The notes below the pieces were generated by a model. The model did no database searches and was not told the origin of the DNA. It saw only the letters and a list, made by a program, of their open reading frames with translations. A stretch of DNA of 16,250 bases from Dunaliella salina (Eukaryota; Chlorophyta; Chlorophyceae; Chlamydomonadales; Dunaliellaceae). Positions 564 to 15,552 of this stretch are shown here, piece by piece. The stretch lies in contig MU070355.1 in the NCBI GenBank assembly GCA_002284615.2, forward strand, positions 31,379-47,628. Reading direction: 5' to 3'. A program made the position numbers and the translations under genes. Positions within the stretch are counted from its first letter, which is position 1. Each line of letters starts with the position of its first letter.

Positions 564-751
564 GTGCGACTGTGTACGGCACCGGCAAGGAGAGAACTGC
601 GAGCAAGAAATGAGTGAGGCGGAGTTCAAGGCCCGCTGCTCCAGTCTAGAGTTCCGCGGAATTCCTGACTGTGAGGAAGGCTACCCTGCTTGCGTCAATG
701 GCTGCAATGACCGCGGCACTTGTGAAAAGGGATTCTGCAAATGCAATCCAG
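564..751 (+). CDS. Exon 1 of the visible gene: end of EGF-like module 1 and most of module 2
   Basis: The frame reads CDCVRHRQGENC, which fits the EGF C-terminal signature C-x-C-x(5)-G-x(2)-C, then a linker with further cysteines (ARCSS, IPDCEEG, PACVNGC), then CNDRGTCEKGFCKCNPG, the first part of a second EGF-like module. The exon ends with the first base of a Gly codon at a good donor (GTAAGG at 752), phase 1. The 5' border is uncertain. The frame is open from 484; an acceptor ending at 563 (GCTAAG) would start the exon just before the CxC, in phase 2, and one ending at 488 (ATGCAG) is also possible. The beginning of EGF module 1 is missing and should lie in an upstream exon. EGF-like modules are disulfide-bonded, so this part should face the lumen or the outside. 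Confidence 0.85.

Positions 752-15552: not shown

Follow-up and report, generated by a model that had tools for sequence, protein, structure and literature searches.

Introner elements are intron-associated repeats in which one sequence is dispersed over many introns, and in human IFI6 (6-16) a minisatellite supplies several splice donors that are used alternatively. Closer to the repeats reported here are the amphioxus "mirages", tandem duplications across exon-intron boundaries (PMC3087553) that have been described in Adh3, the globin genes BflGb6 and BflGb9, troponin C and PGBD5 (PMC3087553, PMC3902484). According to excerpts of these two papers, mirages occur at 5' or 3' boundaries, consist of intronic copies, many of them with AG or GT, have units of tens of bp to ~160 bp, and are reported to leave regular splicing undisturbed. 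Intron gain by tandem genomic duplication is a further such system, and potato RdRp (PMC4974935) is listed as a case of it. The earlier note on the DNA studied here, made from the letters alone, knew of no described class of intron repeats of its kind, a view that the excerpted account of mirages overturns.

The stretch analysed here (the window; 16,250 nt, G000:C907:31379-47628) belongs to a 285 Mb assembly in 1403 contigs of Dunaliella salina, a salt-loving green alga. It contains an exostosin (GT47) glycosyltransferase gene for which 11 exons are supported by homology to the D. tertiolecta protein P0001. These lie on the + strand at 564-751 (exon 1), 1754-1815 (exon 2), 2293-2366 (exon 3), 3583-3694 (exon 4), 4135-4255 (exon 5), 5111-5207 (exon 6), 6766-6805 (exon 7), 9145-9246 (exon 8), 9833-9946 (exon 9), 12180-12345 (exon 10) and 15174-15307 (exon 11). 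They were found in order by tblastn with P0001 and three relatives, and were placed by alignment. The exon chain is matched by a relative's protein: the joined exons give a stop-free reading of 425 aa with a PF03016 (exostosin GT47) match (E 8.9e-20) and an EGF-like part, and P0001, its closest relative (85% identity, 97% of query covered), aligns continuously over the exon junctions except for three residues at exon 4. An exon 4 start at 3592 was replaced by 3583 on the evidence of P0001. All ten introns (10/10) are bounded by GT-AG. Exons are 40-188 bp, the first probably being cut, and introns 440-2828 bp. The exon numbering proposed earlier is identical to that of the P0001-based model. 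The gene end once placed at 15552 is unsupported: after EEYARKQ, P0001 goes on as VALKCAGHHLHYGS, and the implied last exon (15487..15552, +) was rejected. Because assembly gaps lie on both flanks of the window, the first and last exons of the gene are missing.

Six of the 20 exon edges in the window have copies in their own intron. They are the acceptor edges of exons 7, 8, 9 and 10, copied upstream, and the donor edges of exons 5 and 10, copied downstream, exactly the exons and sides at which degenerate copies had been noticed earlier; a shuffle test and junction probes both confirm them. In the shuffle test, 40-nt exon-only probes were scored against the adjoining intron and 100 dinucleotide shuffles of it. 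The score was reached by 0/100 shuffles for the acceptors of exons 7, 8, 9 and 10 and the donor of exon 10, by 1/100 for the donor of exon 5, and by 2/100 for the acceptor of exon 11, which showed no copy at the junction-probe threshold; for the other 13 edges it was reached by at least 14/100. Junction probes, at a threshold of 42, detected 31 copies over the six edges with 71-91% identity and none in the adjoining intron for the remaining 14/20 edges. At least 3 nt on either side of the junction were present in 28/31 copies, and 3/31 held exon sequence only. Among comparisons with non-adjoining introns, 3/180 exceeded 42, all three being donor-side probes of the short exons 7, 8 and 9 that matched the same exon's copies in the preceding intron.

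Exons 8, 9 and 10 have several copies, and exons 5 and 7 have one each. The exon 5 donor edge (junction 4255) has a single 40-column copy at 4319..4357 (+; 32/40) with GT kept, and the exon 7 acceptor edge (junction 6766) has one copy at 6468..6525 (+; 48/58) with AG kept. A CA repeat at 6574-6735 separates the latter from exon 7; further long CA/GT dinucleotide tracts lie at 7893-7980 and at 15308-15432, the last starting at the exon 11 donor site. Eleven copies of the exon 8 acceptor edge (junction 9145) occupy 8180..9108 (+; 73-88% identity), with AG in 7/9 of those covering the site, and two of the exon 9 acceptor edge (junction 9833) lie at 9574..9776 (+; 71% and 75%; AG in 2/2). Exon 10 is copied on both sides: six acceptor-edge copies (junction 12180) form part of a 78-bp array at 11697..12146 (+; 79-91%; AG in 6/6), and ten donor-edge copies (junction 12345) lie at 12574..13467 (+; 72-91%; GT in 8/9 covering the site), overlapping a 31-bp array at 13232-13488. 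Several intronic copies are visible to tblastn at the protein level, and some contain stops.

To describe the introns as filled by such copies was too strong, as edge copies account for 2152/13534 intron nt (16%) and, together with arrays found by TRF, for 33% of the intron sequence of the window gene. Two array regions have no exon-edge match in the window gene. One is a 73-bp array of 11.7 copies in intron 9 (10059..10922, +), whose consensus unit contains an acceptor-like TTCCTGCAG and which could stem from a lost exon edge. The other is a set of nested arrays with periods of 28-141 in intron 10 (13903..14672, +).

The survey was extended to ten genes comprising three exostosins, five kinesins and two chaperonins. 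Copies were found at 22/98 edges, and 9/10 genes have at least one, which bears out the earlier suggestion of a repeated, non-chance process reaching other genes. Counts at a score of 30 depend on the chosen scoring thresholds; the exon 5 donor and exon 9 acceptor of the window gene pass the shuffle test and score below 30, so that 4/20 window edges count at that cut-off. The second exostosin gene (G000:C907:75953-85435, minus strand; L009, L010) lies on the same contig as the window and encodes P0010, an NCBI D. salina protein, with exon matches of up to 100% identity that are lower where they enter an intron. It has 5/18 edges at 0/200 shuffles and, apparently, two GC-AG introns. The third exostosin gene (C345), which was picked after its arrays had been seen, has 2/4 edges at 0/200 shuffles. 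An exostosin-like frame of 419 aa at G000:C618:38891-42742 (L001), unlike the other exostosin genes, has no stops or introns over the domain and may be foreign or belong to another branch. Few usable genes came out of a codon-usage scan of randomly chosen loci.

The kinesin and chaperonin genes were selected before anything of their repeats was known, by domain match (PF00225 and PF00118, respectively), exon-match count and size; the five kinesins were taken out of at least eight gene-like clusters. Their edges are the ends of HMM matches and approximate the junctions, and introns or parts <120 nt were left out of their shuffle tests. In the five kinesin genes, 15/54 edges stood at 0/100 shuffles, with at least one in every gene; one of the 15 is weak (score 25, with shuffles reaching 23). 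In the two chaperonin genes, 2/26 edges scored at least 30, and two further edges with scores of 29 and 23 stood at 0/100 shuffles. The C656 chaperonin gene (L033) had 0/12 edges copied and, unlike the other genes, 0/222 intron points duplicated. The loci L034 and L035 belong to a single gene. TRF reported 71 arrays of period ≥10 in 107 kb, the window included.

According to the controls, the copies seen in nine of the ten genes are genuine, in direct orientation and local. In the eight exostosin and kinesin genes, with low-complexity probes and parts <120 nt left out, 24/94 edges were positive against the adjoining intron, 12/47 for acceptor edges against the upstream intron and 12/47 for donor edges against the downstream intron. 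Reverse-complement probes gave 0/94, reversed probes 0/94, non-adjoining introns of the same gene 0/562 comparisons, and the wrong side of exons of at least 100 nt 0/64; exon-middle probes gave 4/64. The chaperonins gave 0/26 with reverse-complement probes and 0/76 with non-adjoining introns.

The eight genes yielded 107 matches over 34 edges, of which 88 lie on both sides of the junction, 6 contain exon sequence only and 13 contain intron flank only; the last (13/107) do not count as exon copies. Copies with at least 10 nt of exon number 89 over 27 edges, occur in all eight genes and have a median identity of 0.78. Most of them (83/89) cross the junction with at least 3 nt of intron flank, a figure that is partly built in because the probes contain the junction. 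None of the 89 copies spans a whole exon; as a sign of an exon-definition filter this is not decisive, since few units extend that far. Introns with exon-reaching copies have a median length of 1388 nt (n=23), compared with 598.5 nt for those without (n=18; P = 2e-5, eight genes), and longer introns also have more room for copies. With that reservation, the association agrees with the intron growth proposed in the earlier note.

We consider it likely that these copies are explained by pervasive local tandem duplication that sometimes extends across a junction. Introns would grow and turn over by direct duplication, with array periods of ~20-130 bp, and whenever a unit happened to span an exon-intron junction, a decaying copy of the exon edge, splice site included, would be left in the intron. 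The protein would survive if splicing kept to the site beside the complete exon, that is, the last acceptor or the first donor; D. salina RNA is presumably spliced only at this exon-proximal site, and a copy, having one splice site and no partner for it, would be ignored. Intronic copies could then be copied further and decay, and an exon-edge ladder would be the footprint of indiscriminate duplication under selection on the mRNA. The molecular step may be replication slippage or unequal exchange.

The copies keep near-consensus splice sites. Splice-site statistics were taken from the three exostosin genes, where junctions are exact. Among copies covering the site, AG or GT is kept in 41/46, whereas the remaining dinucleotides in these alignments lead one to expect 29.9; a permutation moving the position per edge gave a null of 29.7 and P = 0.002, or P = 0.015 with edges equally weighted. 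AG/GT is thus retained more than neighbouring dinucleotides, which is not as plain neutral decay predicts. Median acceptor scores were 6.5 for copies, 7.5 for real sites and -1.4 for other intronic AG, and median donor scores were 8.0, 8.7 and, for other intronic GT, -2.2, with matrices built from just 22 donor and 21 acceptor sites, among which are the copies' own parents. As the copies are interrelated and the matrices hold the parent sites, retention and near-real scores are together suggestive. Selection might keep near-consensus duplicate sites while splicing reliably takes the exon-proximal one, so that the ladders would buffer splicing or would at least amount to a natural experiment on site choice across the genome; we regard this as unlikely. 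That the copies are themselves functional, as alternative exons or as decoy splice sites under selection, would fit both the AG/GT excess over the 29.7 expected and the strength of the copied sites. We find it improbable, however, since no copy found covers a whole exon, some contain stops, a strong site that was recently duplicated would give strong-looking copies in any case, and the matrices are small and include the parents.

A process tied to the splice site itself, such as AG/GT microhomology, R-loops or splicing-linked breaks, could also multiply exon edges specifically, and the earlier note had indeed placed the duplication at splice junctions. In the eight genes, 270/846 intron windows were positive when matched against the remainder of their own intron. 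With the same one-sided geometry, and with introns <240 nt and low-complexity probes left out, 21/80 edges (26%) were positive in these genes compared with 267/1491 intron points outside edge copies (18%), a possible mild excess that depends on omitting windows within edge copies; adding the points inside them brought the intron count to 481/1825. With the chaperonins included, 22/98 edges (22%) compare with 500/2459 of all intron points (20%). Arbitrary intron points are therefore copied about as often as edges, duplication is largely indiscriminate, and a junction-specific process is not needed. The edge rate moreover rises with the intron background rate of the gene (Spearman 0.67, P = 0.025, 11 loci), and the copies share no common end: their reach into the exon varies between a few nt and 128 nt, and their ends are scattered relative to the junction. 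The predominance of junction-crossing copies would favour targeting, but it is partly a product of probes within which the junction lies. Targeting of the junction is, on these grounds, quite unlikely, and the claim that duplication acts there was not upheld.

Under pervasive local duplication the exons would be the source and the arrays the product. The reverse order, with arrays as the older element and exon edges derived from these by exonization, is conceivable because minisatellite units can carry splice sites. It is very improbable here: the copied edges encode parts of the GT47 protein common to relatives (for example, DVVIPVITP and GGGHGNRQV), which identifies the exons as the source, and a relative seems to have single edges where the window has several copies or one. 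This relative, P0027 (EukProt, labelled Pelagomonas calceolata), is 97% identical to the window gene over exon 6 and looks like a Dunaliella transcript present as a contaminant, in which introns are retained and read through in one frame. Counted from the sequence, its intron 8 has ~164 nt and one acceptor edge where the window has 586 nt and three, and its intron 6 has ~228 nt compared with 1558 in the window. In P0027, introns 6 and 8 thus seem shorter and exons 7 and 9 seem to have single edges, as expected if window introns have grown, although internal splicing of introns 6 and 8 in the transcript is possible. P0027 was rejected as evidence on intron 7: a Trp codon precedes exon 8, so there is no AG at that point, part of the intron looks spliced and nothing was inferred. 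An assembly artefact or chance similarity is hardly credible even in a draft assembly with large gaps and repeats, as edges and copies differ by ~20% (median identity 0.78), too much for duplicated reads, and chance is opposed by the 0/562 non-adjoining and 0/94 reverse-complement matches.

The edge copies bear on annotation as well as on splicing. If repeats are masked ahead of annotation, genuine exon edges may be lost from view, and copies may give rise to spurious exons. The count in the D. salina genome paper is 16,697 loci when repeats are masked and 36,851 genes when they are not (PMC5658486), and we infer a link between this masking-dependent gene count and the edge copies. Long introns are not a feature of every D. 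salina gene, since in hsp90 the exons measure 35-241 bp and the introns 313 bp on average (PMC3430215). The open-licence PMC literature contained no report of such repeats in Dunaliella among the matches listed. Edge ladders provide many natural cases in which near-identical competing sites face the splicing machinery.

The copies differ from introner elements in being found, within the gene, only in the adjoining intron (0/562 elsewhere in the gene). They resemble IFI6 (6-16) in that a tandem repeat runs across a donor site, although in IFI6, which is one human gene, the repeats serve as alternative donors. The duplication model of Rogers, as excerpted in PMC3087553, likewise has splice-site sequence copied by tandem duplication, but there it creates a new intron, whereas the D. 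salina duplications seem to lengthen existing ones. The closest likeness is to mirages as the excerpts describe them. In both, units run across the exon-intron boundary (83/89 exon-reaching D. salina copies, 28/31 in the window, with probes that hold the junction and kinesin junctions that are approximate), copies adjoin the parent boundary (24/94 in adjoining introns against 0/562 in others), both boundary types are duplicated (12/47 acceptor and 12/47 donor edges) and many copies have AG or GT (41/46, three genes). D. salina differs in its green-algal host, in the spread of copies over nine of the ten genes surveyed, at a rate close to the intron background, and, mostly, in the greater divergence of its copies (median identity 78%, compared with 81-100% within BflGb6 in the excerpt). 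With an anatomy so close to that of mirages, the D. salina edge copies belong to this known class in a distant lineage: a pattern known from single lancelet genes now appears in a green alga, at about one-fifth of the sampled exon edges (22/98). What is new here is the algal host, the measured frequency, the agreement with the background rate and the near-consensus splice sites in the copies.
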